Origin: an uncultured Bacteroidales bacterium
Lineage (GTDB): Bacteria > Bacteroidota > Bacteroidia > Bacteroidales > F082
Assembly (NCBI GenBank): GCA_900317055.1
Contig: ONFF01000002.1
Coordinates: forward strand, 124,001 to 188,000
Length of the DNA: 64,000 nt
Reading direction: 5' to 3'
The first letter of the stretch is position 1. Each line of letters opens with the position of its first letter. Shown here piece by piece: positions 14,873 to 32,597 of the stretch. Under the pieces are notes generated by a model, which was not told the origin of the DNA, did not search any database, and saw only the letters and a program-made list of their open reading frames with translations. A program made the position numbers and the translations under genes.

Positions 14873-14879
14873 ACATCTT

Positions 14880-15971: not shown

Positions 15972-16006
15972 TTCATATAGTTTTCATTATGCAGGACTCA
16001 GAAAGC

Positions 16007-16164
16007 ATGTCATTCCTGCTGAGGAATGTGCGTAAGCATGGAATCTATGATTTCTGAGGCCGTCTAATATGCATTATTCAAGCCGCCTCTTATAGATTGA
16101 CTTCGTCGAATGCAGGGCATTTCCTCTCCTTCGCACGTGCCCTTAATGGAATGACATAAGAGGC
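16007..16164. repeat. Intergenic element with nested inverted repeats
   Basis: ATGTCATTCC (16007-16016) is the exact inverse complement of GGAATGACAT (16148-16157). GCCTCTTAT (16085-16093) is the exact inverse complement of ATAAGAGGC (16156-16164). The element fills most of the gap between ugd copy 2 and the epimerase. No ORF is apparent. It could be a small non-autonomous repeat or a structured RNA leader for the epimerase-Thoeris transcript. Confidence 0.5.
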
Positions 16165-16180
16165 TTGCTTTTACACTCCA

Positions 16181-17479
16181 TCAATCTCTCTTAAATATAT
16201 CCCTAGTATAAACCTTTTCCTTCACATCATCCAAGCAGCTATCATAGCGATTTGCGATAATCGCTTGGCTTAGGAACTTGAACTTAGTGAGGTCGTTCAC
16301 CACCAGACTACCGAAGAAGGTTGTGCCGTCATCAAGTGTCGGCTCGTAGATAATCACTTTCGCCCCCTTGGCCTTCACGCGTTTCATCACGCCTTGGATG
16401 GAGCTTTGGCGGAAGTTGTCGGAGTTCGATTTCATAGTCAGGCGGAATACGCCTATGGTTAGGTCAGCTTCCTTGCTCTGGTCATATTGTGAGGACTCTG
16501 TATAGTACCCCGCCATCTTCAGCACCTGATCGGCGATGAAGTCCTTACGGGTGCGGTTGCTCTCCACAATGGCACGAATGAGATCTTCGGGCACGTCCTC
16601 ATAGTTGGCCAAAAGCTGTTTCGTATCCTTTGGCAAACAATAGCCGCCATAGCCGAAGCTGGGGTTGTTATAATGGCTACCGATACGAGGGTCAAGACAA
16701 ATGCCATCAATAATGGCTTGGGTATCGAGACCTTTCACCTCGGCGTAGGTGTCAAGCTCATTGAAGTAGCTCACACGCAGTGCGAGGTAGGTATTGGCGA
16801 AGAGCTTCACTGCCTCGGCTTCCTTCATACCGATGAAGAGCATCGGCACATCCTGCTTGATGGCACCCTCTTTCAGCAATGCGGCAAACTGATGCGCCTT
16901 CTCCGTGAGCCAGTCGAGGTCGGTGAGGGCTTTGATGGCCTCGTTCTCTTCCTCAAACTCCTCGTTCATCATCTTGGGGATGCCCACGATGATGCGGCTG
17001 GGATAGAGGTTGTCGTAGAGGGCCTTGCTTTCGCGCAGGAACTCGGGCGAGAAGAGTAGATTGAACTTCTTCAAGCCTTTGGCAGCATACTTCACATAAA
17101 GACTTCTCGTATAGCCCACGGGGATGGTACTCTTGATGACCATCACGGCATCGGGGTTGACGCTCAACACCAAGTCTATGACTTCCTCCACATGGCTCGT
17201 GTCGAAGAAGTTCTTCTGTGAATCATAGTTGGTCGGTGCCGCGATAACAACGAATTCAGCGTTCTTATAGGCTGCCGCACCGTCAAGGGTGGCAGTGAGG
17301 TTGAGTTTCTTCTCTGCAAGGTATTTCTCGATATACTCATCCTGGATGGGTGACTTCTTCTGGTTGATGAGGTTGACCTTTTCGGGAATAACATCCACTG
17401 CGGTGACGTGGTTATGTTGTGCCAACAATGTGGCGATGGAAAGCCCGACATAGCCGGTGCCTGCTACTGCGATGTTCAT
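16181..17479 (-). CDS. ugd: UDP-glucose 6-dehydrogenase, copy 2
   Basis: A 432-residue near-duplicate of the protein at 11069-12367. It has the same [18 protein letters not shown] loop, the same [18 protein letters not shown] active-site stretch with cysteine 281, and the same end [10 protein letters not shown]. Differences are scattered and conservative, so both copies look functional. Codon use is somewhat more G/C-rich at third positions than in copy 1, judged by eye, suggesting the copies diverged or arrived separately rather than by a very recent duplication. A clear TATCTTTG box lies upstream at 17621-17628 with a ~140-base leader. Confidence 0.93.
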
Positions 17480-17493
17480 GGGTGTTGGTTTTA

Positions 17494-17536
17494 TTACGGC
17501 TCCGCCTTGTCAGTCACAGATTGTGGTGGCAAGGGG
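17494..17536 (-). promoter_or_regulatory. Conserved leader element, copy 1 (before ugd)
   Basis: On the minus strand it reads CCCCTTGCCACCACA, then ATCTGTGACTGACAAGGCGG and AGCCGTAA. CCTTG pairs with CAAGG, and the inner CACA pairs with TGTG, giving a small nested hairpin. A near-identical copy lies at 33721-33766 and a diverged one at 37868-37907, each downstream of a TATCTTTG box and upstream of a gene start. It may be a cis-acting RNA element; function unknown. Confidence 0.55.
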
Positions 17537-17620
17537 CTTATTCTTAACTCGTTACGAACAGATGATTCAACCTTCCTTGGAGGAACAAAGACTATCATTC
17601 CATCCGTATCAATAATTGTA

Positions 17621-17628
17621 CAAAGATA
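17621..17628 (-). promoter_or_regulatory. Bacteroidota -7 promoter box for ugd copy 2
   Basis: The minus strand reads TATCTTTG, matching TAnnTTTG exactly. It lies about 142 bases upstream of the ugd start. A convincing -33 TTTG was not seen. The same octamer stands before the epimerase at 32641-33612 and the PtuA-like gene. Confidence 0.6.
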
Positions 17629-17696
17629 GGTGTTTTTTATTGTTCGGTTTTTCTTTTGCAGGATTTTCTTTCCCCTTTCTCGCGATCTTCGCATAC

Positions 17697-17735
17697 TGTT
17701 GGCATAGTCAAGCAAGCTGTTTGAGTATGCTAACA
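17697..17735. repeat. Hairpin repeat, copy 1
   Basis: TGTTGGCATA and TATGCTAACA form a 10-base stem with one mismatch around a 19-base loop. A second copy with the same loop architecture is at 38156-38194. Both lie shortly downstream of the stop of a minus-strand gene, so a terminator or processing role is possible. On the minus strand both copies also read AKVLAYSNSLLDYANS in one frame. Confidence 0.55.
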
Positions 17736-17783
17736 CCTTGGCATCTCCTTGCTAAGTCCTTGCCAACACCTTGCCAAAAGGGG

Positions 17784-18668
17784 TTATTGCATCATGCCTC
17801 TTGCTCCTTCGTAGGAGCAGCTTTGCGCTCCTATACATTGGGCTGCGTTGAGGGCCTCAGCAATGGCGATGGGCGTAAAATGGAATATCTCGTGTTTTTC
17901 TTTGTCCTTATAGAGTTCGTTGATCAAGGCAGCAGCCGTCCAGTCGCCAGCACCTGCTGTGTCAACCACGTTGTCGTTCACCATAGGCTCCAGATGCGTC
18001 CAGCCCGAATTGAGCCGATAGGTCAAGCCTTGCGCTCCCCGGGTCTGGATGAAGAGTTTGTCCTCCACATCGTCGAACTGATGATAATCCTTAATCCTCT
18101 GATCGGAAAACTTGATCACGTCAGCCACCTCAACACATTTATTGAACGTCTTCACGTCGCCTCCACGGCTGGAAGGCTCGAAGAATACAGCCGAACCTTT
18201 TTCCTTGAACGTATCGGCCAGTCTCAATATGGCAGGCGAAACCCTGTCGAAGAAAAACACTTTGGGAACAAAGTCAATCCTGGCAATGACATCATTGGTC
18301 TGCTTCAAGGTAAGCGACTTGAAATCCAGATAGAAGCGACCCATATTGTTGCGCGACTCGAACCGATGGGTTGGCACACCGTCTTTATTGATGAAGTTGC
18401 GCTGCACGATGACAGGGGTCTTGCCATCGCTGGTGGAGATAAAGTCGGTATGGACGCTGTTTTTCTTCATATCCGCAAGAAGCCGTGCGGTATCTTTCGT
18501 GCCGTCGAGACGGGCAATGGGGAAAGCATCCCATCCCATGTGGGCGAGAATCATCATCACATTGCCGCAAGTGCCTCCCACATAATAGGACACGGGGAGC
18601 CGCTCGCCATCGCGAATCAAGACATCGAGGCTGATGAGGCCGGCTCCGAGGATGATGTTGTCTGACAT
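17784..18668 (-). CDS. PfkB-family sugar/nucleoside kinase
   Basis: A 294-residue ribokinase-fold kinase. YYVGGTCGNVMMILAHMGW (about 27-45) is the sugar-binding region, and DTAGAGDWTAAALI (from about residue 236) is the PfkB signature with the catalytic aspartate in GAGD. The C-terminus SYEGARGMMQ matches the nucleotide-lid end of the family. It is the last gene of the 17.8-28.7 kb operon, 88 bases after the RloB-like gene. A PfkB kinase next to a SIS-HAD fusion and a PRTase suggests processing of a phosphorylated sugar or nucleoside. The substrate is unknown. Confidence 0.85.
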   Translation of the reverse strand: MSDNIILGAGLISLDVLIRDGERLPVSYYVGGTCGNVMMILAHMGWDAFPIARLDGTKDTARLLADMKKNSVHTDFISTSDGKTPVIVQRNFINKDGVPTHRFESRNNMGRFYLDFKSLTLKQTNDVIARIDFVPKVFFFDRVSPAILRLADTFKEKGSAVFFEPSSRGGDVKTFNKCVEVADVIKFSDQRIKDYHQFDDVEDKLFIQTRGAQGLTYRLNSGWTHLEPMVNDNVVDTAGAGDWTAAALINELYKDKEKHEIFHFTPIAIAEALNAAQCIGAQSCSYEGARGMMQ

Positions 18669-18670
18669 AA

Positions 18671-18765
18671 AGTTTAAAGTTAATAGTTTATGGTTTATAG
18701 TCAGTGGAGAGTGTATAGTTTAAAAGTTTAAGAGTTTAGAGTTTAGGGTTTAAGGGTCAAAGTTC
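18671..18765. repeat. TTTAGAGTTGAGAG-family repeat between RloB-like and PfkB genes
   Basis: A run of AAGTTTAAAG, TTTATAGTCAGTGGAGAGTG and AGAGTTTAGAGTTTAGG units on the plus strand. It occupies the whole gap and overlaps the end of the RloB-like gene, so it may contribute the last codons of that gene. It belongs to the same family as copies at 33.7, 34.9, 39.2 and 41.6 kb. Confidence 0.65.
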
Positions 18766-19803
18766 AATTATGCTGTTATTATTGCCCTCGGTCAGCATAA
18801 AGGCTATGGCATTATTGGGAATCATCAGCCGACAGGAATCCCCGCCTGGCTGAAGCAACACTCTGCCATTGGATGAGATGACCGACAAGTCATTATCCAA
18901 GAATGCGCCTTGACCTTCAGGAATAATCACCGTCACATTACCCTCATTAGTCATCACCAGCTCATTATTGTCATGAATTACCCTAATTTCGCTGCCACTA
19001 TACCTCATTAATGAGTTTATACTATACCAACGGTACTCTACTGTGACGCCAAGCATCCGGGCCACCAACATATCGACATCCGTATAGGGATTGCTGACCC
19101 ACACCGCTGTCTGCGACCTATAGCGCAACCATGCCGCATTGATCATTGCATTCTTTATTCTGGGAAGGCTGTAGGTTTTAAAAATATCCTTTTTGCCTTT
19201 TGAATAGTCGGTTATATAGTGTTGTTGTCTCAGTCTGCCTCCGATGCAATCCGTTCCGTGGCAATCTCCATCACCAGCGGCAGACGAACCGCATCGGATT
19301 TCCTTGTTGTCAGCCTTGCACTCAGAATGCTGAAACGGTTGTGGGCAACGCTCGAAATGGGCCAGCAGCCACTCTTCGAACGAATAGGACGAGAAGGCGA
19401 TGCCCACATTGGCTTGTTTTGCATAACGGAAGGCATCCTCATGGGCGGGATGCTGGTCGCAGTCGAAAACCGCCCATCCCTCAGCATAACCGTCCTCTTG
19501 CATAAAGAGAACCGTCTCCCTGACATAGCGTGTCGGTTGCGCACAATAGAGATTATAATCCTCAGCATTGTCCTCGTATTTGCAATAGTAGTGGTATTGA
19601 GGCACGTTAGACAACTTCCTTGCCAGGTGGTTGCGTTTGGGATTCTTCCGGTCAATCCTTTCCTCCGGCACGGGAACCACCTTGATGGCACAATAGCGGT
19701 CGGGCTGATGCGCCATGACATACTCTTTCAGGTCGGTGAAATACTGATACTCCGTATCGGTGCCTTCACAGACGATGACCAGGTTGTTGCTATGCGTCCT
19801 CAT
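18757..19803 (-). CDS. RloB/AbiLii-like TOPRIM-type protein
   Basis: About 348 residues from the ATG of MRTHSNNLVIVCEGTDTEYQ at 19803. This start overlaps the ATPase stop by 14 bases and puts the family motif CEGTDTEYQYF at the N-terminus; an ATG 18 codons upstream is less likely. WAVFDCDQHP supplies the D-x-D of a TOPRIM-like metal site, and SNPYTDVDMLV matches the conserved end of the RloB domain. Two oddities: a cysteine-containing insert near the middle (CGSSAAGDGDCHGTDCIGG), and a C-terminal extension of about 90 residues beyond the usual domain end. It would be the nuclease-like partner of the AbiL-type ATPase. Confidence 0.75.
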   Translation of the reverse strand: MRTHSNNLVIVCEGTDTEYQYFTDLKEYVMAHQPDRYCAIKVVPVPEERIDRKNPKRNHLARKLSNVPQYHYYCKYEDNAEDYNLYCAQPTRYVRETVLFMQEDGYAEGWAVFDCDQHPAHEDAFRYAKQANVGIAFSSYSFEEWLLAHFERCPQPFQHSECKADNKEIRCGSSAAGDGDCHGTDCIGGRLRQQHYITDYSKGKKDIFKTYSLPRIKNAMINAAWLRYRSQTAVWVSNPYTDVDMLVARMLGVTVEYRWYSINSLMRYSGSEIRVIHDNNELVMTNEGNVTVIIPEGQGAFLDNDLSVISSNGRVLLQPGGDSCRLMIPNNAIAFMLTEGNNNSIIEL

Positions 19804-21103
19804 TGCCACCGTCGTTTGAGAACACTTGTTCGATGTCCTTGAAATTCGGCAACGCACCGAATCGACCCGACCGGTACCACTCGTCGAAAGGCAGCACTAT
19901 GCTAACATCCTCGAAATCCTGCACCGAGTACAGTTCCGACTGGCCATGTTCTCCCTTCTGCGCCAACCATATCTGGTCGGCCCGCATAAGGTTATCGCCT
20001 ATAATGGAGACATCGTGCGTTGTGAACAACAACTGTGCGTTGTTGGGGTTGGTTTTCTCGCTGTGGAAAAGGCGCACCAGCATGCGGAAAAGCAAAGGGT
20101 GCATGGCCACATTCATCTCGTCGTAAACGAGCATACCCCCGCTGTTCAGCACATTCAACACATTGGTACCGACGCTGAACAGGTTTTTGGTGCCTGTTGA
20201 CTCAATGCCAATGGGAAATCCGACATTAATCCCGTTGCCTTTATGCACAAACACGAATTCCCATCTGTTTTGGGCTATGAATGACTTCCTCACTTCAGCT
20301 GGAATCGAATCAGGGAAGTTAAACTCTGAATCGTCGTGTTGGCGCATCTTGATGTCTTGGATGTTGCCGTCGGCCACCATCATCAACTTTTTCAGCTGTT
20401 GGAAGATGCGGCTTTGTTCACTCTTCAGGATATTTCCAGCCACTGAGCTATTGTTTAGACTCATGTCCAAAGCGCTGTCAACCATCTCGCTCTGGATGCC
20501 TCGCAGTTCGCCATACACGTTTTGCAGGCCATTAGCCTCGCGCGTTCCAAGTTCCGACATTATCAACTGGTTAGGCAGAGGATTCATGTTTGAAAGGTCG
20601 AACGTTGTGCTCCGCCATCCCTCGCCAAAAGACATATTGTAACTATTCTTCCCAACATCGAAAGTGCGGCTGAAAACCAGCAATTCATTCCCCAAGACAA
20701 TCTCATTCAGCACTTCGACCAGAAACATCTGATGGTTAAAAGTGATGGAGTAGCTGTACTCGCGTTTCTCCACAACAAACAGCACTGTAATAGATGATGG
20801 TTTCTCGCGGCACTCTTTGTCCAACAAAAAGGGCTGGTACACAGGCACACCTCTCTTCACGTCAAAGTTCCTCGAGTTGGCAACTAGGTAGCTGACATCG
20901 CTAAAAGCACGAGCAATGTTGCTCTTGCCCGACGCATTGGGGCCGAGGATTGAGGCCGACTTCAACAGACGCAGGCTGGTGCCGTCTTCCAATTGCAATA
21001 CCGCAATGCTGTCGGCATTAAAATCATTCTCCAACGCTTCAAAAGTCAACGACGCTTCATCTTTATATGAACGGTAATTCTTAACTTTAACTTCAACTAT
21101 CAT
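19790..21103 (-). CDS. AbiL/RloA-like AAA (SMC/ABC-type) ATPase
   Basis: A 437-residue ATPase. SASILGPNASGKSNIARAFS is the Walker A (about residues 51-70), ESTGTKNLFSVG resembles a signature motif, and GGMLVYDEMNVAMHPLLF is the Walker B with the following D-loop region. The start MIVEVKVKNYRSYKDEASL is typical of the AAA_15/21 abortive-infection group. With the overlapping RloB-like gene it forms an AbiLi-AbiLii-like pair, known as a phage-defence unit. It starts 91 bases after the upstream Rossmann-like gene, within an otherwise tightly overlapping operon, so the pair may have been inserted there. Confidence 0.82.
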   Translation of the reverse strand: MIVEVKVKNYRSYKDEASLTFEALENDFNADSIAVLQLEDGTSLRLLKSASILGPNASGKSNIARAFSDVSYLVANSRNFDVKRGVPVYQPFLLDKECREKPSSITVLFVVEKREYSYSITFNHQMFLVEVLNEIVLGNELLVFSRTFDVGKNSYNMSFGEGWRSTTFDLSNMNPLPNQLIMSELGTREANGLQNVYGELRGIQSEMVDSALDMSLNNSSVAGNILKSEQSRIFQQLKKLMMVADGNIQDIKMRQHDDSEFNFPDSIPAEVRKSFIAQNRWEFVFVHKGNGINVGFPIGIESTGTKNLFSVGTNVLNVLNSGGMLVYDEMNVAMHPLLFRMLVRLFHSEKTNPNNAQLLFTTHDVSIIGDNLMRADQIWLAQKGEHGQSELYSVQDFEDVSIVLPFDEWYRSGRFGALPNFKDIEQVFSNDGGNEDA

Positions 21104-21194
21104 TGTATGTCTAATATTTTCAAAACAAATCTGTTTAATCTGTAATCAAGATAAGTTAACGCCTTACTCTTGTGGTTTATTGTGGGTTTAAAGA

Positions 21195-22268
21195 TCACGA
21201 TTCAGAATAGGCATCGCCTGTGATCCAGAGGAGGAAGGTGGTACTCTTTTTGTTTATTTCTTCGAAATTGCGGACATCGATGCCGTAGTCACGGCTGATG
21301 ACATTATAAATGGCCACTTCGTCTTTGTTTTCCATGGCAGTGAGCAGGGCTCCCACAGAGAGCAGTTTGCTCGACAGCAGGGCTATGCCGTAGCAGGCCC
21401 TGCGGTTCACCTTACTAAGGATTTCGTCTTCCGACTTAATGAAGCGTGAAAGCATCTTGTACAACTCAAATGGGTTACGCTCGTGGGCATAGATGATGTT
21501 TTCCTTTGCGTCCTCGCGTTGGAACAGTTCCTTATACTCCTTGATGATGGAGTCGGTGCGGAAGGGGTCGAGTGCAGGATAAGGCACCACTGGGAAGTCT
21601 TCATCGGGTGAGAAATGCTCGGATATTTTGTTCCATTTCACCGTTCCGTTCTCTCCCAACAACGAAATCAAAAGCCTCAGCCTGTCGGGTTCAGCCTCCA
21701 AACCTATGCCGGGATTGAAGCCAATCATGGGTTCCAAGTCCTCGACAAAGTTGCGATACGTGATGCTTTTGTCAATCTCGGCATTCTCAGAAACCACTAT
21801 GAACAGGTTGCGCTTGCCAGTACATTTGCTGATGTTTTTCACCAAATTGAAATAAAGCACACGGGGCAAGGCACTGATGTCAACCAAGATATTGTCGTAA
21901 CCGGTTATTAAGTCGGCTATTTCCTTGTTCATGAACTTAACGCCTCGGTTCAAATCTTTTCCATCCCCCACTTTCAACTTATATTCCTTGAACGGGATCG
22001 AATGGTCGGCAATCAACTGGGTTCTCAGCTCAATATTCTTGGCCACCATATCGGTGTTGGGTGAATTGCGTCGGTCGCCATGAACGATGCTGAGGCAGTC
22101 AAATTCCAAACGAGCTTCGGAAAAAGCCTTGAGCACATTGTTCATACGGGGGTCGAAGCCCTCGCCCATGATGAGCAAGGTCTTGCCTGCCGGGCGGTCG
22201 GGATCGTTCCAGAACGCCACCACCTGCTCGTTGCCTTCAATCATTACATACGAATCCCAATTTCCCAT
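21195..22268 (-). CDS. Rossmann-like protein of unknown function in the PRTase/ORC-ATPase operon
   Basis: 357 residues, not a family I can name. KTLLIMGEGFDPRMNNVLKA (about 29-48) looks like the first strand-loop-helix of a Rossmann-like fold. YDNILVDISALPRVLYFNLV (about 124-143) reads like a second such unit, and RNLFIVVSENAEID a third. The remainder is mostly helical with no membrane segment. The overlap with the ATPase gene is 25 bases if the ATG at 22268 is used; an ATG at 22244 would make a TAATG stop-start junction and is equally attractive. It could be a nucleotide-binding sensor or a nucleotide-processing enzyme. Confidence 0.6.
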   Translation of the reverse strand: MGNWDSYVMIEGNEQVVAFWNDPDRPAGKTLLIMGEGFDPRMNNVLKAFSEARLEFDCLSIVHGDRRNSPNTDMVAKNIELRTQLIADHSIPFKEYKLKVGDGKDLNRGVKFMNKEIADLITGYDNILVDISALPRVLYFNLVKNISKCTGKRNLFIVVSENAEIDKSITYRNFVEDLEPMIGFNPGIGLEAEPDRLRLLISLLGENGTVKWNKISEHFSPDEDFPVVPYPALDPFRTDSIIKEYKELFQREDAKENIIYAHERNPFELYKMLSRFIKSEDEILSKVNRRACYGIALLSSKLLSVGALLTAMENKDEVAIYNVISRDYGIDVRNFEEINKKSTTFLLWITGDAYSES

Positions 22269-24124
22269 TTTTCATCTTCTTTAATCCAATCTTCCAACTC
22301 TTTGAAGGTGAGCTTGCGCCATCCTCCATAGTTCAGTGGCAATGAAAATGCTCCGCATATCCACCTGTTGAGGTAGAACACAATCCACTCCTTATCCTTC
22401 TCCCCTTGCTTGGTCTCCCGTGTAAACAAGAAGTTATTGGCAAGGCACACTTTCAACACATATCCCAACTTGGAGTCGTCCATCGTATCGAAGGTGCTGC
22501 CGAAAAGCGTCTCGGCATCGCGAATGGCAAAACCTGTCACAACACCGTAGGATGAGCCAATCTGCAAAGTCTGGCTACGACAAAAGCCTCCCAAATTATT
22601 GAGGAAGGTATAAACACTCTTACCGTGTTCGTTGAAGATACGCTTCATTTTGCTCTTGCACTCCTCCTTGATGAGTTTGTCCTGAGAGGCGGCATTGAGC
22701 ATCAAGGCCTTGCGGGGGCGTAGCAACTTTTGGGTAAGCAATTGTTCGTAAAGCACATTGCAGAAGCCGATGAACTGTTCTGTATTGTTCGGTGAGAGGT
22801 CTTTCAAACACTCCGTTCCGTAATACATCGGGTGGTTGAACACTGCGGGAATGATTTGCTGCGCAATCTTTACCACATCGGCCTTCACCCTCTCATCATA
22901 ACTGTTCCGCTCATAAGGGAAGATAGGAAAGCCTGTCTTTGACTCACGCTGGGCAAACAGCATCACCGCAAAGGTCTGCTCGGCTTTGTCCTGAAGGGTT
23001 TCAACATTCTCATCGATATAGCCCAGCAACTCGTCATACAGAATTTGGCTTACCGCGTTGATGTGTTTCCTGCCGTAATTGATGATAGCCTCATAGTCGC
23101 TGTCAGTAAGTATGGAAGCTTGCTCTAGCGAATTGGCAAGCTTGATGTCGTGTCTTGACAGGTTGGAGCGTTTGTCCATGATACTTCCCAGCATTTTCTC
23201 AAACTTATTGTCGGTTCCGAGGTGGATGCTGTTGTAATCGCGCCCTATCATATCGGTTTTAGGCATCAGTTCCTCATAGGTGAACTTGTCGTAACGCATG
23301 GCCAGCCACACCGTGTTGGTGATGCGGGTTTCCACTAGTTCTTGGCGTAGGAAGTCAAGCTGTGTCTTCGAAAGCTTATGGCAATCGTCGAGCTGGAATA
23401 TGAATTCATCCACAATAGGTTTACCCAGGATGGTGAAATTAGAGGCATGAAGATCTTTCAATATAAAGAGCGAATCGTGTCCGTTGCTTTCGTCGATGGT
23501 ATCGTAAGTCTCGATAATTCCCGTAATCTTGCGTTCGATACTGGCTGCCCAGTCGAAAAGTTCCTTAGCTGTGTGGGGGGCGGGATTGGGGGCAAACTTA
23601 TTAGAAAAATCCAATGATGGGGTAAACGCAATCTCGTCAAGTTGATTGTATTCAAAACTTTTCGAATCCTGCAAAGTTTTCAATTCTTGAAGCGCCTTGA
23701 TTGCCACCAACGTAAAGCGGGCATTGAGCAAAGCAAAGAGCAGCCTACGGGCTTGCGGTTTGGTGAACACCTCCTCGTCTTCAAGGTCGGCATAGCTTCG
23801 GTTGGTTAGCAGGTAGGCACCGCATTTCAGAATCTTGTTGCCACTCACCACGCCCATGCTCTTCAGTGCCTTGTATAACTTGTCGTTTTCCTTGCGGTTG
23901 TTGCTTACCTTATACAAAACAGACGGAGAGAAACAGCGCAGCATGGTGGTCTTGCCTCCGCCAGGAGCACTGCAAATATAAGTGAGGTTGTTCCACAATG
24001 CACCCCTGTCACTGTAGTCTTTCAGTGGATACAAGGTGTCATCGGAAAGAAGACTGATGAACACGTCATCTGAAGTCATCTTTTCGGACGCTCTCATATT
24101 AAAGGGGTTGTCATACTGCTGCAT
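22244..24124 (-). CDS. ORC/Cdc6-type AAA+ ATPase of a conflict-type operon
   Basis: About 626 residues. TYICSAPGGGKTTMLRCFSP (about 48-67) is the Walker A with its arginine/phenylalanine context, and FIFQLDDCHKLSKTQLDFL is a Walker B of the FxxDDxH form typical of ORC/Cdc6-like and STAND-type ATPases. No nuclease or TIR domain is visible. The ATG at 24124 (MQQYDNPFNMRASEK), 2 bases after the PRTase stop, is preferred over a TTG two codons upstream. It may act as a sensor or remodeller. The pairing with a PRTase-like gene matches a neighbourhood type described in computational surveys of bacterial conflict systems, as I remember them. Confidence 0.7.
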   Translation of the reverse strand: MQQYDNPFNMRASEKMTSDDVFISLLSDDTLYPLKDYSDRGALWNNLTYICSAPGGGKTTMLRCFSPSVLYKVSNNRKENDKLYKALKSMGVVSGNKILKCGAYLLTNRSYADLEDEEVFTKPQARRLLFALLNARFTLVAIKALQELKTLQDSKSFEYNQLDEIAFTPSLDFSNKFAPNPAPHTAKELFDWAASIERKITGIIETYDTIDESNGHDSLFILKDLHASNFTILGKPIVDEFIFQLDDCHKLSKTQLDFLRQELVETRITNTVWLAMRYDKFTYEELMPKTDMIGRDYNSIHLGTDNKFEKMLGSIMDKRSNLSRHDIKLANSLEQASILTDSDYEAIINYGRKHINAVSQILYDELLGYIDENVETLQDKAEQTFAVMLFAQRESKTGFPIFPYERNSYDERVKADVVKIAQQIIPAVFNHPMYYGTECLKDLSPNNTEQFIGFCNVLYEQLLTQKLLRPRKALMLNAASQDKLIKEECKSKMKRIFNEHGKSVYTFLNNLGGFCRSQTLQIGSSYGVVTGFAIRDAETLFGSTFDTMDDSKLGYVLKVCLANNFLFTRETKQGEKDKEWIVFYLNRWICGAFSLPLNYGGWRKLTFKELEDWIKEDEKWEIGIRM

Positions 24125-24126
24125 AA

Positions 24127-25263
24127 TCAATGGCGTGTTATTCTGTAAAACAACGGGTAAAGCGGTTGTTTATTATCTTTTTTTTCGGGCTGCCAAATGA
24201 TAGGCAGCGAATTGTTGGGCGTATTATGGTTAAGCACCACGGTCAGGGCACACTGCTTGTAGCCCAAATAGTATCTCTTTTCGGCATCGTCGGAATAGCT
24301 GTTCTTGTAAGCATCGGAGAGGGCATCTTCGTGAATATAGCATTTTTTGCTAATGACGAAGAGCATATCCTTAGCTTCCTGCTCCTGATGGTTGGTGAAC
24401 TTGGCATCTTCATCGAGTGTCTGAATGCAATCCACCTCTATCTTTAAGCTTTCGTGCTGCTGCATAAATTGCGCCAGCATCTCCCGGATATAGGACAATG
24501 CGTTCTTGGTGGCAATGAGGAAGTAGAGGTGTATCACATAGCCGTCGGCCAACAACTTCTTGAATCTATCGCTGTTTTCCAACACTTTAAAGAAAGTGGG
24601 TAGCTTACCAGAAAATCCGCCATCGTCTTTCACACGAATGAACGAGGTGCCGCTTGCGGTGAAATCATCCACCAGCACAATGGATTCGAACTTCTTCTCC
24701 TCGTCATTTACCAAATCGTCGCTTTTCCCCAGTTCCTTGACGAGGTCATCTATCTTGTTGTCATCGGGATAATAGTTGGTCAGCACTTGGTCGTTATTCA
24801 GATAACTGTTGCGACGGATGATATCGATATGCGAGCCGTCGCTGAGGCCAATGAACAAAGTTTTTCTTTTATGTAACTTGAACTCCTGTGAATTATCAAA
24901 CAACTGGTAGTTGAATTTGTTGACAAGCTGGCCTTTCTGCTTGAAATCACCCACAACCTTTTCCCTAATCAACGGGATGATCTTGGTGTTGTAGAGCAGG
25001 TCGATCAAATGCGAAATCTGGTTGGAGTTGATGTAAATGATATACTTCTTCACAAAGTCGTACATCAATTGCCTTTCCTCCTCTTTGAACTGACTGAGCC
25101 AGAGATAGAAATTGCCCACGAACTTGATACCTGGCATAAACTGGTCGTAGGAGTCGTACTTGATGTCGGCCATGAGGTCAATTTCCTTTAACCTCTCTGT
25201 CGCCTCAATATCGTCCCAGTTCATTAACTGCGCCAGAAATTGTTTCGCCAGATTGAATCTCAT
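24127..25263 (-). CDS. Phosphoribosyltransferase-like protein (PRTase of conflict-element type)
   Basis: 378 residues. ESIVLVDDFTASGTSFIR (about 193-210) is an intact type I PRTase PRPP-binding loop (VDD..ASGT). LFIGLSDGSHIDIIRRNS (about 136-153) would be an earlier strand-loop of the same fold. The N-terminal ~110 residues are helical and specific to this family. The C-terminus NHNTPNNSLPIIW is a conserved tail I associate with PRTases next to ORC/Cdc6-like ATPases. The start overlaps the SIS-HAD gene by 4 bases (ATGA). It could transfer or release phosphoribosyl groups on a base or nucleotide; substrate unknown. Confidence 0.72.
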   Translation of the reverse strand: MRFNLAKQFLAQLMNWDDIEATERLKEIDLMADIKYDSYDQFMPGIKFVGNFYLWLSQFKEEERQLMYDFVKKYIIYINSNQISHLIDLLYNTKIIPLIREKVVGDFKQKGQLVNKFNYQLFDNSQEFKLHKRKTLFIGLSDGSHIDIIRRNSYLNNDQVLTNYYPDDNKIDDLVKELGKSDDLVNDEEKKFESIVLVDDFTASGTSFIRVKDDGGFSGKLPTFFKVLENSDRFKKLLADGYVIHLYFLIATKNALSYIREMLAQFMQQHESLKIEVDCIQTLDEDAKFTNHQEQEAKDMLFVISKKCYIHEDALSDAYKNSYSDDAEKRYYLGYKQCALTVVLNHNTPNNSLPIIWQPEKKDNKQPLYPLFYRITRH

Positions 25264-27143
25264 ACTTTAAATTTACATTTAATCACACCATCTTTGATCG
25301 TAAGGCGGCTCAGGTAGTAGAGCGTTGCGTCGAGTCCGACCATGCCCACGGGGGCGATGTTCCAGCAACTCTCGGCATTGCGCGACACCTTGTCAACACT
25401 CAGCGAAGCAGGGACAGTGAGCATCTCGTAGTCGTTGCCTTCCACACTGCCGTAGTCGCCTATGCAGAGGGTGTGCTCGACATCCTCAATCACACGAAGT
25501 TTGTTTGCCTCGTGATAGACCACAATGTCCATGCTGTGGCTGCTGAGCCATACTCTAATACCTCGCAACTGTTTGTCCCAGATAATCTCACGGCAGGTGC
25601 TATAGAGCAATTCCGTATCAGCATCGGATATCATCTCCTCGATGGAGAGCTGTTGGTTGCGCTCAGTCAACTCATATTTAATACAGTCCTTCGGCAAGCG
25701 TCTTTGTAATTCGTCGCTCAACACTTTTAGTTCGCTGTCGAAAGGCTGCTTTTTCCATTCTTTCAGTTTCTCCTCGTCACCCAAGGCCAACAGGCAAGCA
25801 CCGTTGTAGTAACCTACCTTGATTTGCGGCCAATATTTTTCGTCAAATGATTTCTCGAACGAACTGCCCACCGACTTGCCACGGCCTGTGGCCACTCGAA
25901 TCTCCGCACCATTGTCTAATAGGCGTAGCAAGGCGTTCTTGATGTCGTCGCGCAGTTTATCGTTGTAGCGACTAGCATGGTCTTTGGCCGACAGGGTGCC
26001 GTCGTAGTCGAAAGCCACGGTGGTAAACTTGCCTCGATTGAGACGCCGCACGAAACGCTGGCAAGCTTCACTGTAATGCCCCCATAGGCTGGCGTTTTCT
26101 TCACCTGCCACACCCAGTTTGCGACGCACCGCCACATTCAATGTAGGCTCGTTGGGGAGTATGCGGTTGGTGAGCTTGAAGTAGTCCAAGTTGTAGAGCA
26201 AGCGGCCATACGAAGGTACACCCGGTCGGCCAGGGTCAATGCCACGAGCCTCGCCCAAGGCGTTCACAAAGCTGAAGACCTTCAACAGCAGGTCGATCGA
26301 CGCTTGGGGCGTTTCCAATTCGGTCTCAATATAGATTACCGGCACATCGGCTGGCATACAGGCCAAAGTCTTGTCGGCCAGCTCCTTCTCCACAGGAGTC
26401 ACCAGTGCGATGATGCACGAGTTATTCTTGTTCTTGGCAAACCAATGATGCCGTCCATGGCCGAAGTTGCGGTAATCGCTCAGCAAGGCCGACCCCAAAG
26501 CCGCCTCGGTCAGCTTCGACTCGATATCCCACGCTACAGGCTCGCCCAAGGCTCCGAAGAGGACGAGAAAGTTACTTGGTTTAAGGTTCAAGGGTTCAAG
26601 GTTCAAGAGTTTGAAACTTGAAACTTGAAACTTGAAACCAACCGCAGCTTTGCAAATCAAAGTGAAGGTGGCCACGAGCGAGTTGGTGGCCAGGAAGCCG
26701 TCCTTCTCGGTGGGGATGTCCTCGCACCAGTGTTGCACCTTGGAGTGCTGCTGGAGAAATTCCTCGGTGGGGTTGCCTTTGCGGAGCGTAAGGCTCATCA
26801 TGCCCGCCTCGTTATATTTCACACCATATTTAATGGCGTTCAGAATGTCTTTATTTTTTCCACTGGCACTCAAAAACAGTAGTTTGCTGCCACGTATAAT
26901 TTCCCTTCCTGAATACATCAACTGCAAGGGAGTCATCGCCACAGCCACAACGCCGTTGCGCTGCCGCGACAGCATGGCCGCATAGTGGCAGGCACTGAGC
27001 GAGCCACCCGAACCAATGCACACCAGCGGGGTTTGCTTGTTCTCGCCAAACAGGAACTTCGACAACGAGGATACATCCTGCTGCGCGGCCCACTGGATGG
27101 TGGTGGGGATTTGATGTAATTCGCTATTGAATGGCTTACCCAT
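25260..27143 (-). CDS. SIS sugar-isomerase domain fused to HAD phosphatase
   Basis: 627 residues. The first half has two SIS halves: VCIGSGGSLSACHYAAMLSR (41-60) with LLFLSASGKNKDILNAI (88-104), then FLVLFGALGEPVAWDIESKL. The second half is a HAD phosphatase: FDYDGTLS (378-385), VATGRGKS (417-424) and IGDYGSVEGNDYEML (561-575), with a Cof-type (IIB) cap (GYYNGACL). The fusion suggests isomerisation and dephosphorylation of one sugar phosphate. Residues about 169-191 are encoded by an inverted repeat of TTCAAG/GAAACTT units, an in-frame insertion between the two SIS halves. It overlaps the PRTase by 4 bases. Confidence 0.85.
   Translation of the reverse strand: MGKPFNSELHQIPTTIQWAAQQDVSSLSKFLFGENKQTPLVCIGSGGSLSACHYAAMLSRQRNGVVAVAMTPLQLMYSGREIIRGSKLLFLSASGKNKDILNAIKYGVKYNEAGMMSLTLRKGNPTEEFLQQHSKVQHWCEDIPTEKDGFLATNSLVATFTLICKAAVGFKFQVSSFKLLNLEPLNLKPSNFLVLFGALGEPVAWDIESKLTEAALGSALLSDYRNFGHGRHHWFAKNKNNSCIIALVTPVEKELADKTLACMPADVPVIYIETELETPQASIDLLLKVFSFVNALGEARGIDPGRPGVPSYGRLLYNLDYFKLTNRILPNEPTLNVAVRRKLGVAGEENASLWGHYSEACQRFVRRLNRGKFTTVAFDYDGTLSAKDHASRYNDKLRDDIKNALLRLLDNGAEIRVATGRGKSVGSSFEKSFDEKYWPQIKVGYYNGACLLALGDEEKLKEWKKQPFDSELKVLSDELQRRLPKDCIKYELTERNQQLSIEEMISDADTELLYSTCREIIWDKQLRGIRVWLSSHSMDIVVYHEANKLRVIEDVEHTLCIGDYGSVEGNDYEMLTVPASLSVDKVSRNAESCWNIAPVGMVGLDATLYYLSRLTIKDGVIKCKFKV
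26585..26639. repeat. In-frame hairpin repeat inside the SIS-HAD gene
   Basis: GGTTCAAGGGTTCAAGG on the left faces TTGAAACTTGAAACC units on the right. The two halves are inverse complements with a few mismatches, so the RNA would fold into a hairpin of about 20 base pairs. It is read in frame, adding about 20 residues (KFQVSSFKLLNLEPLNLKPS). Confidence 0.75.
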
Positions 27144-27145
27144 TT

Positions 27146-27225
27146 TTAGTTTTTAGTTTAGAGCTTAAAGTTTAGAGACAGTTGAAAGTTGAGAATTTTA
27201 AGTTTTAAGTTCAAAGTTAAGGCTC
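27146..27225. repeat. TTTAGAG-family repeat between SIS-HAD gene and its upstream neighbour
   Basis: A run of TTTTTAGTTTAGAGC, AAAGTTTAGAGACAGTTG, GTTGAGAATTTTAAG and TTCAAAGTTAAGG units. It fills the 73-base gap and may encode the last residues (YLNLEP) of the upstream protein. Confidence 0.6.
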
Positions 27226-28698
27226 AAGGTTTAGATATTTCTTTCGAACGAACTTCAAGACCTTGGAGGCTTCATGCCATTTGGGCTCTTTGGTGAAGTC
27301 GGGGTTGCGGAAGTATTTGTTGAACGAGGAGCCTGAGATGGGGAACTCTTCGTCATCGCTGTTTTCAACTATCGACAAAGCGGCGTACAACTTGTCACCG
27401 ACGGGTCTGAGCTTCTTGAAGAGGTTCATCTCGGATGCCTCGCGCAGCAGATGCACATAGGCTTCCATTTTTATATTATCAAGACCGTCCTCCAACAGTT
27501 TCAACAGCTCCACCTGCGGTTCCCTCAGTGCGATATCAATCCTTGGCGAGAACCATTGGGCGAAGAGGCCGTTTAGGTCGGCAAGGGTCTTGCCTGTGGC
27601 CATGCAGGGCAACAAGCGTGCATTGTAGGTTTCAATACGCTGAAGCACACGGCTGATGCGCTGCTGGATATCATCGGAATGGCGGGCGGTGTTATCGAAG
27701 CGGGTCTGCAAAGTGCCCTCAAGCTGACGGCACATGGCCTCCATCAACACGAAGAGGGTTTGAAGATGTTTCTCTTCGCCATCGCTCAAAATCACGTCCT
27801 TGCGCACGAGGAAGTCAACAATGCTGTCTTCGTCGAGCACCGGGAAATGTTGACCGACTTTGAGATTGACAAAGTTCAAAGCCTTGGAGAAAAGTTCGTT
27901 GTTTGCCCAGGGCTTCGCCTTGGCCGGTATCTGCTTAGGGGCGGGATTGATTTCGCCCTCCTCGAAGATGTTTTTTAATTGGTTAAGCAACTCGTGCTGC
28001 TCGCTCTCGGAAAGATCCAAATCGGAAAGCTCATCCTTGCCGACAAGGGTTTGAATGCGTTGCTTTAGGTAAAGGAGCTGACGGATAACCGAGGTGTTGC
28101 GTTTGGCGCTGCAATAATAAACGTAATCCTGTAGTTCGGCCTGGATGGATTCCTTCTTGGCCGCATTGTCAAGATATGCCCTAAGAGCCTTGCTACGCTT
28201 ATCGGTTGATAGGTGCAACGGAAGCATGGCAAGGTTGCTGAGATTGGTTTTGAGCGAATCAAGAGCCATCTCCAACTCATCAATGGCCTGATGGTAAGGC
28301 TTGCGGGCGATACTATCGTAGGGATGCTCCAGCTTGGCTTTGCCGTTGAGAGAGGCATTGCGGTCGCACAGCTTCTCCATGAGGATTTGCAGGCGGGTGG
28401 CACGTCCCTTGCCTATGGCCGTATCGTGCTCCAACTGAAATTTAGGGTTGGACAGTTTCTCCTTCCAATTCTGGATTTTGCGCAACCATTCGTCGAATGG
28501 AAAACTAACGTAGAAACTGATATCCAACCGCTCCTCCATGAGATGATACTGCGTAGTGACCCCCTCCGCTGCATTCTGGGCATACATCACAAAGAGGAGT
28601 ATGTCGGTGTGGCGAAACAGGTCAGCAAGATTGGCTTGGGTCATCAGAAACTCAAGCACTTGCAGACGTGCAGTGATATGTTTTGTTTCTTCGTACAT
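27217..28698 (-). CDS. Unknown protein, first gene of the PRTase/ORC-ATPase operon
   Basis: 493 residues, family not recognised. It is largely charged and predicted helical, with no membrane segment or signal peptide and no nucleotide-binding motif. Segments such as FRHTDILLFVMYAQNAAEGV (about 28-47), YYCSAKRNTSVIRQLLYLKQ and FPISGSSFNKYFRNPDF (near the C-terminus) may help find relatives. It is promoter-proximal and is followed by the SIS-HAD gene after a repeat-filled 73-base gap. Being the first gene of the operon it could be a scaffold or sensor. Function unknown. Confidence 0.6.
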   Translation of the reverse strand: MYEETKHITARLQVLEFLMTQANLADLFRHTDILLFVMYAQNAAEGVTTQYHLMEERLDISFYVSFPFDEWLRKIQNWKEKLSNPKFQLEHDTAIGKGRATRLQILMEKLCDRNASLNGKAKLEHPYDSIARKPYHQAIDELEMALDSLKTNLSNLAMLPLHLSTDKRSKALRAYLDNAAKKESIQAELQDYVYYCSAKRNTSVIRQLLYLKQRIQTLVGKDELSDLDLSESEQHELLNQLKNIFEEGEINPAPKQIPAKAKPWANNELFSKALNFVNLKVGQHFPVLDEDSIVDFLVRKDVILSDGEEKHLQTLFVLMEAMCRQLEGTLQTRFDNTARHSDDIQQRISRVLQRIETYNARLLPCMATGKTLADLNGLFAQWFSPRIDIALREPQVELLKLLEDGLDNIKMEAYVHLLREASEMNLFKKLRPVGDKLYAALSIVENSDDEEFPISGSSFNKYFRNPDFTKEPKWHEASKVLKFVRKKYLNLEP

Positions 28699-28982
28699 AA
28701 CTATGAGTACAACAATTCCCGAGCTCTTTAGGTGATTGTTTTAGTGATTGTTTGTGCAAGATGGCTGTCTTAAAGTGATTACGAATCTCTTGTTTTTTTA
28801 CTTGCTGTATATCAATAGGTTAAAAATACCATCCAAGATGATTAAAGAAGATTTTTAAGAGGGTTGGTCTTGCTCTACTATTGCAAATCGAAAACGGACG
28901 GGAAGTGCATCCCGGGTAAGTCACAAGCCTTCCGCTTTCACGAGTAAACAACAAATTGTTTCACCTTTTAATAAGTACGCTT
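28699..28982. other. Divergent intergenic region
   Basis: 284 bases between the minus-strand operon (starting at 28698) and the plus-strand M15 peptidase. It must hold promoters for both directions, but I saw no perfect TAnnTTTG box. TGATTGTTTTAGTGATTGTT near 28732-28751 is a short direct repeat that could be an operator. No ORF is apparent. Confidence 0.45.
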
Positions 28983-29501
28983 ATGAAAGACAACACACTG
29001 CTTTCGCCGCACTTTGCGCTTCGAGAGTTCATCAAGAGCGCAACGGCCATGAAGCATGGCATCGACAACCGGCCTACGCCTGAGGTGGTCGCGAACCTGA
29101 AGCGTCTCTGCATCAACACCCTCGAACCGCTACACGAGAAACTGGGGCTGCCCATCGTCATCACCAGCGGCTACCGCACCAAGGCCTTGAACAACATCAT
29201 CGTACATGCGAGCCGTAAGAGCCAGCACATGACAGGACAGGCTGCAGACTTCTATGTTGCTTCAACTCCTTCGACAGGTTCGGGGACTGGCTCGACAACC
29301 AGTCATCGCGAACTGCTCATCAGGGCGTTTCGCCTAATTATCACTGAACCGGAGATTGACTTCGACCAGCTGATCATCTATCCCTCATTCATCCATGTGA
29401 GCTATGTCTCTAAGGATACCAACCACCACAAAATCATGACTGCCCAAGGCGACGGCAAATACTGCCGCCTGACACGCGAGGACGCACTTATGCTCAATTA
29501 A
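28983..29501 (+). CDS. M15-type zinc peptidase (D-Ala-D-Ala carboxypeptidase/endolysin-like)
   Basis: About 172 residues from ATG 28983 (MKDNTLLSPHFALREFIKSA), preferred over an ATG nine codons upstream because the family starts with this FALREF segment. ITSGYRTKALNNI and SQHMTGQAADFYV give the zinc-binding H and D, and FIHVSYVSKDTNHHKI the second histidine region (HVSY). It should cut peptidoglycan stem peptides. A CCTTCGACAGGTTCGGGGAC repeat is inserted in frame, adding a PSTGSGTGSTTS loop. It heads a four-gene plus-strand group of a type commonly found beside Bacteroides polysaccharide loci. Confidence 0.88.
   Translation: MKDNTLLSPHFALREFIKSATAMKHGIDNRPTPEVVANLKRLCINTLEPLHEKLGLPIVITSGYRTKALNNIIVHASRKSQHMTGQAADFYVASTPSTGSGTGSTTSHRELLIRAFRLIITEPEIDFDQLIIYPSFIHVSYVSKDTNHHKIMTAQGDGKYCRLTREDALMLN
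29268..29304. repeat. CCTTCGACAGG repeat inside the M15 peptidase gene
   Basis: CCTTCGACAGGTTCGGGGAC is followed by TGGCTCGACAACCAGTC, which itself is an inverted repeat (TGGCTC/ACCAG). It is related to the copy in the epimerase gene at 15178-15198 and is also read in frame. Confidence 0.65.
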
Positions 29502-29532
29502 TTATCAATTTTCAATTATCAATTATCAATTC
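29500..29532. repeat. ATTATCAATT short tandem repeat
   Basis: Four to five units of AATTATCAATT type with one AATTTTCAATT variant fill the gap between the M15 peptidase and the next gene. Related AATTGACAATTGATAATTGA units occur at 33.62 kb and 39.19 kb. Confidence 0.7.
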
Positions 29533-29540
29533 TTAAAACC

Positions 29541-30110
29541 ATGGCACAAATCAAACAAGTCGGCATTGGCCGCAAAACTTCCGGTACCATCGATGGTATC
29601 ACCTATGTAACTCGCAACGGTAAAACCTACGCCCGTTCAACTCCTACCATGCCCAAGAAGGCTTACAAGACTCCTGCGTCTCTGAAACGTCAGGCTGTCT
29701 TCAAAATGATCCAAATGCACTTGAAGTATCATCTTCGCACCATTCGTCAAACTTTCACTCCCAAGGGTAACGGTAGCCCCTCAAACCGCTACTATGCCGT
29801 AAACTGCAAGGCCCTACGCTTGGCTCTCGATGCCCTGGCCGACCACTATTTGGATGGGGCGGAAGTAAGCCTCACCGACGTGGAGGCAGCCATCAGCGCC
29901 TATGCTGTAGAGAATCCTACCTCGATTTGCATTGCCAAGCTGAGTGGCTATGGCGAGGTTTACCTCACTGGTGAATGGCCTGCTACCATCACCCTGAATG
30001 CCCTTGGTGGCGACAGCACCATTATCATCATCGTAGCTGAAAACGGCACCACGACTACCATCAATGCCGATGGCACTACTAAAGCAAGTACCCCTAACGA
30101 CAAAGTATGA
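29541..30110 (+). CDS. Conserved hypothetical protein (Bacteroidota)
   Basis: 189 residues. The N-terminal half is basic and starts MAQIKQVGIGRKTSGTIDGI, followed by TYVTRNGKTYARSTPTMPKK and a polar segment ending GNGSPSNRYYAVN. The C-terminal half is acidic and beta-rich (VYLTGEWPATITLNALGG, STIIIIVAENGTTTTINADG), like a small beta-sandwich. The pattern resembles Bacteroidota proteins of unknown function encoded beside M15 peptidases and smalltalk proteins. No signal peptide is visible. The gene is 39 bases after the peptidase, in the same direction, so likely co-transcribed. Function unknown. Confidence 0.7.
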   Translation: MAQIKQVGIGRKTSGTIDGITYVTRNGKTYARSTPTMPKKAYKTPASLKRQAVFKMIQMHLKYHLRTIRQTFTPKGNGSPSNRYYAVNCKALRLALDALADHYLDGAEVSLTDVEAAISAYAVENPTSICIAKLSGYGEVYLTGEWPATITLNALGGDSTIIIIVAENGTTTTINADGTTKASTPNDKV

Positions 30111-30142
30111 CCTTAATAATTCACAATTAAAACTACAAAGCG

Positions 30143-30334
30143 ATGAAAAAGCTCATCAAATTCTTCTCAACTCTATTCGGATCAAAGAACACCGATGCAA
30201 CACCTGAAAATCCTGAACCTAACGAGAGCCCTAGAAAAGCCCTCTGGAAGTTCATCATCCAAACTCTCATCAGCATCCTCACCGCAATTCTAACCGCTTT
30301 GGGTGCTTCATCCTGCGTACATCATCTGATGTAA
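30143..30334 (+). CDS. Smalltalk-like small membrane protein
   Basis: 63 residues. The C-terminal segment WKFIIQTLISILTAILTALG followed by ASSC matches the smalltalk family of Bacteroidota (short membrane proteins ending in TSC/SSC). The N-terminal ~35 residues (MKKLIKFFSTLFGSKNTD, then an EPNES-rich linker) are an extension compared with the usual ~33-residue form. It lies between the hypothetical gene and the amidase-like gene, as is usual for the family. Function unknown; a holin-like or membrane-adaptor role has been imagined but is not shown. Confidence 0.75.
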   Translation: MKKLIKFFSTLFGSKNTDATPENPEPNESPRKALWKFIIQTLISILTAILTALGASSCVHHLM

Positions 30335-30343
30335 ATTTTCTTA

Positions 30344-30390
30344 GTCACACAGATTTCACGGATTTCACAGATCTGTGTTATCTGTGTGAC
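30344..30390 (+). repeat. CACACAGATTTCACGG hairpin repeat
   Basis: GTCACACAGAT (30344-30354) is the exact inverse complement of ATCTGTGTGAC (30380-30390). An inner palindrome CACAGATCTGTG (30366-30377) is also present. It lies just after the smalltalk-like gene and is followed by TTCTTT, so it may act as a weak terminator. The same unit family flanks the GxxExxY gene at 47728-48099. Confidence 0.75.
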
Positions 30391-30416
30391 TTCTTTAACC
30401 CATAACCTTTATAACA

Positions 30417-30767: not shown

Positions 30768-30775
30768 AGGTGTAA

Positions 30776-32044: not shown

Positions 32045-32078
32045 TGTATCTATTGCTTAAATTATTGTTTTTCTTTTT

Positions 32079-32583: not shown

Positions 32584-32597
32584 ATAGAAACACTATT

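Follow-up and report, generated by a model that had tools for sequence, protein, structure and literature searches.

The 64,000-nt stretch of DNA analysed here (the window), from an uncultured Bacteroidales bacterium, carries an operon made of two modules that recombine independently. We lettered its genes A to F in the order of transcription, a pair of abortive-infection genes, AbiLi and AbiLii, lying between E and F, and defined the core as the five genes B, C, D, E and F (Table 1). The outer genes B and F, encoding a sugar-phosphate isomerase-phosphatase fusion and a PfkB-family kinase, form a conserved chassis, within which the triad C, D and E, encoding a phosphoribosyltransferase-fold protein (PRTase-CE), an ORC-CDC6-like ATPase and a CARF6-type protein, is exchanged as a block. 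The same computational comparison identified the genes, established that they recur together, and revealed a slot for defence genes between E and F and a link of B and F with NADAR genes. We give an even chance to the reading that the whole is a mobile two-module antiviral (conflict) operon, in which C-D-E would be a sensor-effector triad and B and F a chassis for ribosyl sugars.

Exchange of the C-D-E cassette inside a conserved chassis

The exchange was studied on Bacteroidales loci selected by B. A scan of 84,980 GTDB species genomes gave 17 loci, nine of them intact across the operon and eight cut inside it. A B match at E ≤ 1e-20 was found in nine of the 173 genomes of the window's family; four contained a relative of the SIS part only and five the operon, namely the window, two genomes already taken as L035 and L036, and two new ones (L080 and L081). 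The window, the nine intact loci and the two new ones make up a set of 12 loci spanning B to F (the B of L081 being truncated at the contig end), and B, C, D, E and F were all present in each of them. Of the eight loci that are cut, L050, truncated in B as well as in F, showed all five genes and the others showed the genes before the cut. Selected in this way, the set shows that full-length B is not found without the rest, and the plasmid searches described below agree independently.

When the window was compared with L035, the proteins A, B, AbiLi, AbiLii and F were 97–98% identical and the three triad proteins only distantly related (41% for C, 36% for D and 34% for E). At the nucleotide level the boundaries were sharp: a blastn match of 94.6% stopped 17 bases inside C, at position 25247, and matching resumed (97.1%) from position 21192, three bases after E. 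A second pair, L038 and L040, had B and F proteins 97 and 99% identical with C, D and E at 47, 41 and 45%; the nucleotide match ended at most 17 bases from the B and E ends, with one short block of 71% inside. In the comparison of L081 with L040, the part from the AbiE genes to F was 96.6% identical and the triad only 40, 35 and 38%, B being at 44%. The triad of L081 is instead of the window type (71, 78 and 72% identical), and the triad type of L035 is also present in L040, L043 and L080. Five triad types were distinguished among 11 loci (L081 left out) with a limit of 75% mean identity.

Across all 12 loci, C, D and E had identity matrices that were mutually correlated (r 0.99, p 0.0001) and whose correlation with F (r −0.12) or with B (r about 0.25, p 0.08–0.12) was low. 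B and F did not correlate with each other over the full set (r 0.01), which speaks against their forming one module; this loss is due to L081, whose B is only 44–47% identical to all others. With L081 left out (11 loci), B and F were correlated (r 0.80, p 0.0001) and the cross-module values ranged from −0.07 to 0.00.

Recurrence on plasmids and contents of the E-F slot

Searching 72,556 plasmids by tblastn, we found E in 17 records, B in 18, C in 19 and, with weaker matches, D in 11; all 17 E records were B and C records too. The extra B record (L065) holds a HAD-type relative of B and no triad. One extra C record (L087, Rhizobium CC1099) holds a lone partial C and the other (L088) a distant PRTase, with B, D, E and F all absent from the stretches fetched. 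Sixteen of the 17 E records were compared as loci, CP039919 being left out; their hosts are Alpha- and Betaproteobacteria and one actinobacterium. B, C, D and E were present in 16 of these 16 loci and F in 15. The gene order varied (B-CDE-F in seven, CDE-B-F in five, B-F-CDE in three and B-CDE in one), so that B/F and CDE behave as two independently moving units. In L064, one B-F pair is accompanied by a second C at the least, after which one more gene stands at the locus edge. The initial annotation had proposed to check whether the same genes recur together, and they do so as a common set in Bacteroidota, Pseudomonadota and Actinomycetota that is not due to chance; the genes are neither scattered singly nor members of one housekeeping pathway, the two outcomes that it had named as fatal to the idea of a system.

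The operon is nonetheless rare. E was found in one of 395 Bacteroidota genomes, the window's own, and in two of the 393 genomes of the order, the second match being weak (E 8.1e-4) and its protein not CARF6 by PADLOC. Besides the 16 plasmids examined, an IMG/VR contig (L091) carries C-D-E-F, a small gene and a NADAR gene, next to a gene whose product has D5_N and DUF5906 domains, a type of primase of phages or satellites; B, if this locus has one, would be past the contig end. L091 was the single F relative in IMG/VR, where no relative of E or of the SIS protein of L085 was found, and a scan of IMG/VR with its C returned the same contig only. GenBank phages gave no match for B, for the PfkB protein of L085 or for the viral C of L091.

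The slot between E and F is variable. It contains the AbiL pair in two of the 12 Bacteroidales loci (the window and L035), an AbiE-type pair in eight (L037, L038, L040, L043, L045, L046, L080 and L081), a DUF4143 ATPase in one (L041) and nothing in one (L036). The AbiE pair was identified by Pfam in L037 and by sequence likeness in the other seven; the AbiEii frame is broken in L043 and the pair degraded in L046. AbiLii of the window matched Pfam RloB (PF13707, 89.5 bits for a cut-off of 31.5, E 4.4e-25) and PADLOC PDLC02337 (E 1.2e-15). The AbiL pair that had been placed inside the operon is thus there, AbiLi and AbiLii adjacent and in place, but the varied contents of the slot make it a passenger and not a fixed component.

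Gene A is likewise outside the core. It had been counted in the operon run, but it lies upstream of B in only four of the 12 Bacteroidales loci (of the eight without it, L045 and L081 are cut upstream), was seen nowhere else than upstream of B, and had no match in the plasmids by tblastn; we therefore consider it accessory. Pfam, PADLOC, NCBIfam and PHROGs gave no usable family match for A, so that its description as a protein without a nameable family stands.

The window operon sits in a capsule-type region with UDP-sugar dehydrogenases and a polysaccharide synthesis protein. About 3 kb away is a Thoeris-like pair (13447–14911, − strand), made of a ThsA with a Macro domain (PADLOC E 4.8e-100; Pfam ThsA_Macro E 1.5e-38) and an overlapping TIR-like ThsB gene (14261–14911; PF08937, 21.5 bits for a cut-off of 21.2). 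A PtuA-like ATPase of Septu type (36533–37777, − strand; PADLOC E 2e-109) and a Bro-N protein (33921–34760, − strand) matching the PADLOC candidate defence gene PDC-S13 (E 6.1e-117) are also present. Defence genes are thus present both in the operon and next to it, and the region resembles a defence island set in a capsule-type locus.

Assignment of the proteins

A check of the window confirmed eight open reading frames (ORFs), all on the − strand (Table 1). The A-B gap of 73 bases is filled by TAAACTTTAAACT-like repeats, B and C share an ATGA overlap (25260–25263), the ATG of D lies two bases past the stop of C (24127), the listed TTG start at 24130 being two codons upstream, and D and E overlap by 25 bases. 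The initial annotation had read these four junctions correctly. Further downstream, E and AbiLi are separated by 91 bases, AbiLi and AbiLii overlap by 68 bases as listed, and 88 bases separate AbiLii from F. A repeat of TTTAAACTTTAAAC type fills both the A-B and the AbiLii-F gaps. Within B, at about 26550–26640, the peptide FKFQVSSFKLLNLEPLNLKPSNF resembles an in-frame copy of a TTTAAACTTTAAAC-type repeat, and the stretch of B that holds it differs among relatives.

Table 1. Features of the operon in the window, in the order of transcription
Feature	Position	Strand	Assignment
Gene A	27217..28698	−	493 aa, no known family; accessory, upstream of B
Gene B	25260..27143	−	SIS sugar-phosphate isomerase region fused to HAD-IIB-type phosphatase; chassis module
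Gene C	24127..25263	−	PRTase-CE phosphoribosyltransferase-fold protein, predicted effector; exchangeable cassette
Gene D	22244..24130	−	ORC-CDC6-like AAA+ ATPase, ATG at 24124; exchangeable cassette
Gene E	21195..22268	−	Stand-alone CARF6-type protein; exchangeable cassette
Exchanged cassette C-D-E	21193..25246	−	Stretch without blastn match (E ≤ 1e-10) between window and L035
AbiLi-type AAA ATPase	19790..21103	−	Passenger of the E-F slot; PADLOC PDLC02335, E 1.7e-73
AbiLii / RloB-like protein	18757..19857	−	Passenger of the E-F slot; PF13707 and PADLOC PDLC02337
Gene F	17784..18668	−	PfkB-family sugar/nucleoside kinase, dedicated subfamily; chassis module

E had been left without a family. 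It matched the PADLOC CARF6 model PDLC01910 from end to end (residues 3–354, E 3.1e-77), and its predicted structure had a CARF fold, CARF proteins filling ranks 1–32 of a Foldseek search. The CARF6 family is said to come from Makarova et al. 2020. Another Foldseek list had offered cation-chloride cotransporters (query TM 0.24–0.27, rmsd 17–21 (root-mean-square deviation)), with CARF rows likewise at low TM (0.26–0.29); since CARF proteins hold ranks 1–32 in the former search, we rejected this likeness as a shared Rossmann-like arrangement. Nothing notable was found for E among PDB sequences (best E 0.41, the invasion protein invA). The E of the window is a stand-alone protein beside a PRTase and an ATPase, and in its genome neither of two usual ligand sources was found with the two models tried: the best match to Csm1-type Cas10 (TIGR02578, the one Cas10 model tried) was 21 bits for a cut-off of 170, and the SMODS nucleotidyltransferase model (PF18144, the one CBASS synthase model tried) had no match.

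C matched Pfam PF24390 (PRTase-CE) with 106.9 bits for a cut-off of 27 (E 2.1e-30). D matched PF24389 (ORC-CDC6-like) over positions 1–564 of the 571 of the profile, with 81.9 bits for the same cut-off of 27; P56, G57, G59, K60 and D248 are invariant in its alignment. Both Pfam families are named for conflict systems, and PRTase-CE was reportedly named by Nicastro et al. 2023, who are said to have predicted an attack on nucleotides. C also matched the PRTase models of retron type III-A effectors (PADLOC PRTase_III-A, a defence label, E 2e-17). In contrast with such retrons, no reverse transcriptase was found by Pfam among 19 window ORFs (8 of the operon and 11 neighbours), and Rfam gave no match in window positions 14000–33000, including no retron RNA.

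Since E is a CARF protein, C-D-E can be recognised as a triad of a known kind. PF24389 matched in 80 of 295 genomes at E ≤ 0.001 and above its cut-off in only 11; we took the weak short rows to be generic P-loop matches and used the four other full-length ones (L003 to L006), comparing stretches of less than 5 kb each. L003, L004 and L005 contain a PRTase-type gene, an ORC-CDC6-like gene and a CARF6 gene in a row, with no B or F adjoining; CARF6 was tested in all three, and the PRTase was identified by Pfam in L003, by alignment in L004 and by likeness and place in L005. In L006, a calcineurin-like phosphoesterase takes the place of the PRTase next to ORC-CDC6 and CARF6, again with no B or F adjoining, so that it is the effector which is replaced, D and E being kept. 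The window has the same effector, ORC-CDC6, CARF6 order as these systems, with C and D above the Pfam cut-offs, but its C is longer (compare 378 aa with 305 aa in L003) and its D is a distant member of the family (81.7 bits compared with 449–490 for L003 to L005). The B+F pair, the E-F slot and the block exchange of the five-gene loci were not seen in these short stretches of the bare triads. C-D-E is thus a divergent member of the CARF6/ORC-CDC6-like/PRTase-CE kind of triad.

B consists of a SIS region (about residues 1–350) and a HAD-IIB-type region (about 370–600). In Pfam, HAD Hydrolase_3 was above its cut-off (23.8 bits for 20.9) and SIS below (18.2 bits for 25). A profile of B made from 18 rows matched the phosphosugar isomerases 8eol/3hba of the PDB (E 3.7e-10, profile positions 19–323), followed by Cof-type HAD phosphatases including the sugar phosphatase BT4131. 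F matched PfkB (53.3 bits for a cut-off of 25.8) and, by profile, the fructokinase 5ey7 (E 1.2e-21). Although the PfkB family of kinases is very large, a tblastn search with F, made at E ≤ 1e-8 only, returned 14 of the 72,556 plasmids, all among the 17 E records (hypergeometric chance about 5e-55). F therefore represents a dedicated subfamily. In F of several proteobacterial plasmids (L052, 14122–15174; L053, 10994–12103; L054, 15056–16117) CPxC motifs are present inside the protein and two-cysteine motifs near its C-terminus, which the aligned Bacteroidales F proteins do not have; they could possibly form a zinc ribbon in a PfkB kinase.

The HAD motif residues of B, the PRPP-loop-like (phosphoribosyl pyrophosphate) motif of C (DDFTASGTS), the Walker A of D and the DxxGxGD motif of F were conserved in the alignments of relatives, although L061's B departs near its C-terminus; because of this conservation B, C, D and F are probably active enzymes. 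The calls of the initial annotation (SIS-HAD, PRTase, ORC/Cdc6 ATPase, PfkB and AbiL) thus agree with the Pfam, PADLOC and profile matches, SIS staying below its cut-off. The ADP-heptose pathway enzymes GmhA, GmhB and HldE have the folds SIS, HAD and PfkB that the window operon shares. This pathway was dropped as an explanation, F reaching 21.6 bits for an HldE kinase cut-off of 345 and no nucleotidyltransferase being present among the operon genes.

The ribosyl link and possible functions of the operon

A NADAR gene adjoins B or F in eight of the 16 plasmid loci; one gene separates it from F in the viral L091. When one operon NADAR was searched against all plasmids, 47 records were found, of which the best eight (66–100% identity) were these same eight loci; the ninth fell to 49% identity, and neither the ninth nor the tenth has an SIS or PfkB gene annotated nearby. 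The probability of sharing eight records between the 17 operon and the 47 NADAR plasmid records is 4e-22 (hypergeometric). A small gene is often found beside NADAR and F; in L056 (12427–12774) it encodes a helix-turn-helix protein and in L091 (5170–5517) it has no Pfam family. It is possible that this gene regulates the operon.

Three genomes of the window's genus contain a run of genes for a PARG (L083, 6218–10491; L084, 6777–12752) or ADP-ribosylglycohydrolase (L085, 2876–7358), a NADAR, a PfkB related to F, an ART-like protein and a SIS protein related to B. The ART-like gene, tested in L084 and L085, is below the Pfam cut-offs; in L084 the ART and SIS genes are separated by two further ORFs, and the SIS gene of L083 is split into two pieces by an interruption of its frame. 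The PfkB of L085 had 12 matches in the plasmids, all in five-gene records, and among the 393 genomes of the order its SIS protein matched only the window's B. We know of no ADP-ribosylation module with sugar-phosphate enzymes of this kind in print. PMC9503650 describes DarTG-like NADAR modules and attributes to NADAR domains a ribosyl N-glycosidase activity on intermediates of riboflavin and on derivatives of ADP-ribose; in L083 to L085, genes of this type are combined with relatives of F and of the SIS region of B, and the five-gene loci share with them NADAR only, and only in part, ART, PARG and NADAR being absent among the 19 window ORFs. Together, the NADAR adjacency and the L083 to L085 operon suggest, by association, that the substrate of B and F is of ribosyl or ADP-ribose type.

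From the recurrence of the five genes, the exchange of the triad, the defence labels and passengers, the carriage on plasmids and a viral contig, and the NADAR link, we infer an antiviral role, a chemistry for the effector and a substrate for the chassis, as follows. D would be an ORC/CDC6-type ATPase switch and E a CARF ligand sensor, both controlling C, a phosphoribosyltransferase-fold effector that would make or break N-ribosyl bonds of nucleotide or NAD type. The isomerase-phosphatase B and the kinase F may handle a ribose-phosphate or ADP-ribose-type sugar used or released by C, with NADAR as an addition to the chassis in roughly half the plasmid hosts. An infection would lead the triad to deplete nucleotides or divert them, and so to stop the cell or the phage.

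Several observations weigh against the antiviral two-module reading. Among the plasmid loci, L058 lacks F, L062 has broken frames, and L056, which carries a second C-D-E beside a single B-F pair, has the C of this second triad in two pieces. The profile of C matched no solved structure among PDB sequences, and an AlphaFold2 model of B built with 12 close relatives was unusable (pLDDT 42.8, pTM 0.31), too poor for a fold search, so that the assignment of B relies on sequence profiles. NADAR was found in none of the 15 Bacteroidales loci scanned and had no match in the window genome, and is thus not obligatory. The fourth SIS-only relative, L082, stands without a PfkB or any other core relative at its side, meaning that the SIS-PfkB link is not universal. 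Lastly, the bare triads have no B or F adjoining, and the chassis is therefore not needed by this kind of triad as such.

Two other mechanisms have to be considered. In the first, B, F and C would make a ribose- or nucleotide-derived small molecule read by E, that is, a second messenger produced without a cyclic-oligonucleotide synthase. The predicted CARF fold of E, the failure to find a usual source of CARF ligands, the conservation of B and F alongside a variable C-D-E, a pattern that a shared supplier would give, and the second triad of L056 and second C of L064, each with one B-F pair, all point in this direction. However, bare triads do without adjoining B and F, the search for a source was limited to two synthase models on one genome and the ligand may come from the phage, and the variability of E, equal to that of C and D, would be strange in the reader of a constant signal. 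On balance we find this mechanism rather unlikely; with it, the sugar or nucleoside signal proposed in the initial annotation survives as one of several mechanisms. We hold in similarly low regard a second mechanism, in which B, F and NADAR would be a reversal or protection arm removing or recycling the product of C, and C-D-E the toxic arm of a toxin-antitoxin-like system. The description of NADAR and ARG domains, in PMC9503650, as removers of ADP-ribose or ribosyl N-glycosidases fits such an arm, as do the B/F-type genes standing with an ART-like gene and removers in L083 to L085 and the one B-F pair for two triads in L056. The absence of NADAR from the Bacteroidales loci and the window genome argues against it, and in L003 to L006, with no B or F adjoining, no such antidote is needed.

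It is very improbable that this is a metabolic operon that salvages nucleosides or uncommon sugars and takes no part in conflict. B, C and F are enzyme-like, the combination of SIS, HAD and PfkB recalls sugar interconversion and the surroundings are of capsule type; against this, the operon is spread patchily on plasmids and a viral contig, C-D-E are at 34–41% inside 97% flanks, AAA+ and CARF subunits and abortive-infection passengers misfit housekeeping, and no sugar transporter is common to the 16 annotated plasmid loci. That the block exchange is an artefact of assembly is hardly credible: all 17 loci of the GTDB scan do come from metagenome-assembled genomes or uncultured bacteria, but the exchange is seen in three near-identical pairs (window/L035, L038/L040 on both sides and L081/L040 downstream), its breakpoints lie at gene ends with frames open, cassette types recur in other backgrounds and complete plasmids show the modules rearranged.

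The operon had been announced as a possibly undescribed system, and this holds in part: the bare triad is of a recognised kind and AbiL is known, but the five-gene form, an exchangeable triad in a sugar-enzyme chassis, looks new. A literature search over titles, abstract openings and excerpts, not exhaustive, returned no five-gene form, no dedicated NADAR, no SIS and PfkB sister operon and no link of a CARF operon to NADAR or ADP-ribose chemistry. The operon links a CARF-containing system to that chemistry, and raises the question of which ribosyl compound B and F handle and whether the CARF protein E reads it. There is some small likelihood that it represents a self-contained, CARF-read signalling immunity in which a PRTase and sugar-phosphate enzymes, and not Cas10 or a CD-NTase, would produce or remove a messenger derived from ribose or ADP-ribose, the reader-switch-effector triad being exchanged whole as an allele cassette in a fixed metabolic chassis. 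Altogether, a block of reader, switch and effector is exchanged as a unit between two conserved metabolic enzymes, next to a slot for abortive-infection genes, and this exchange suggests that the triad may be under phage pressure while the chassis serves all triad types.

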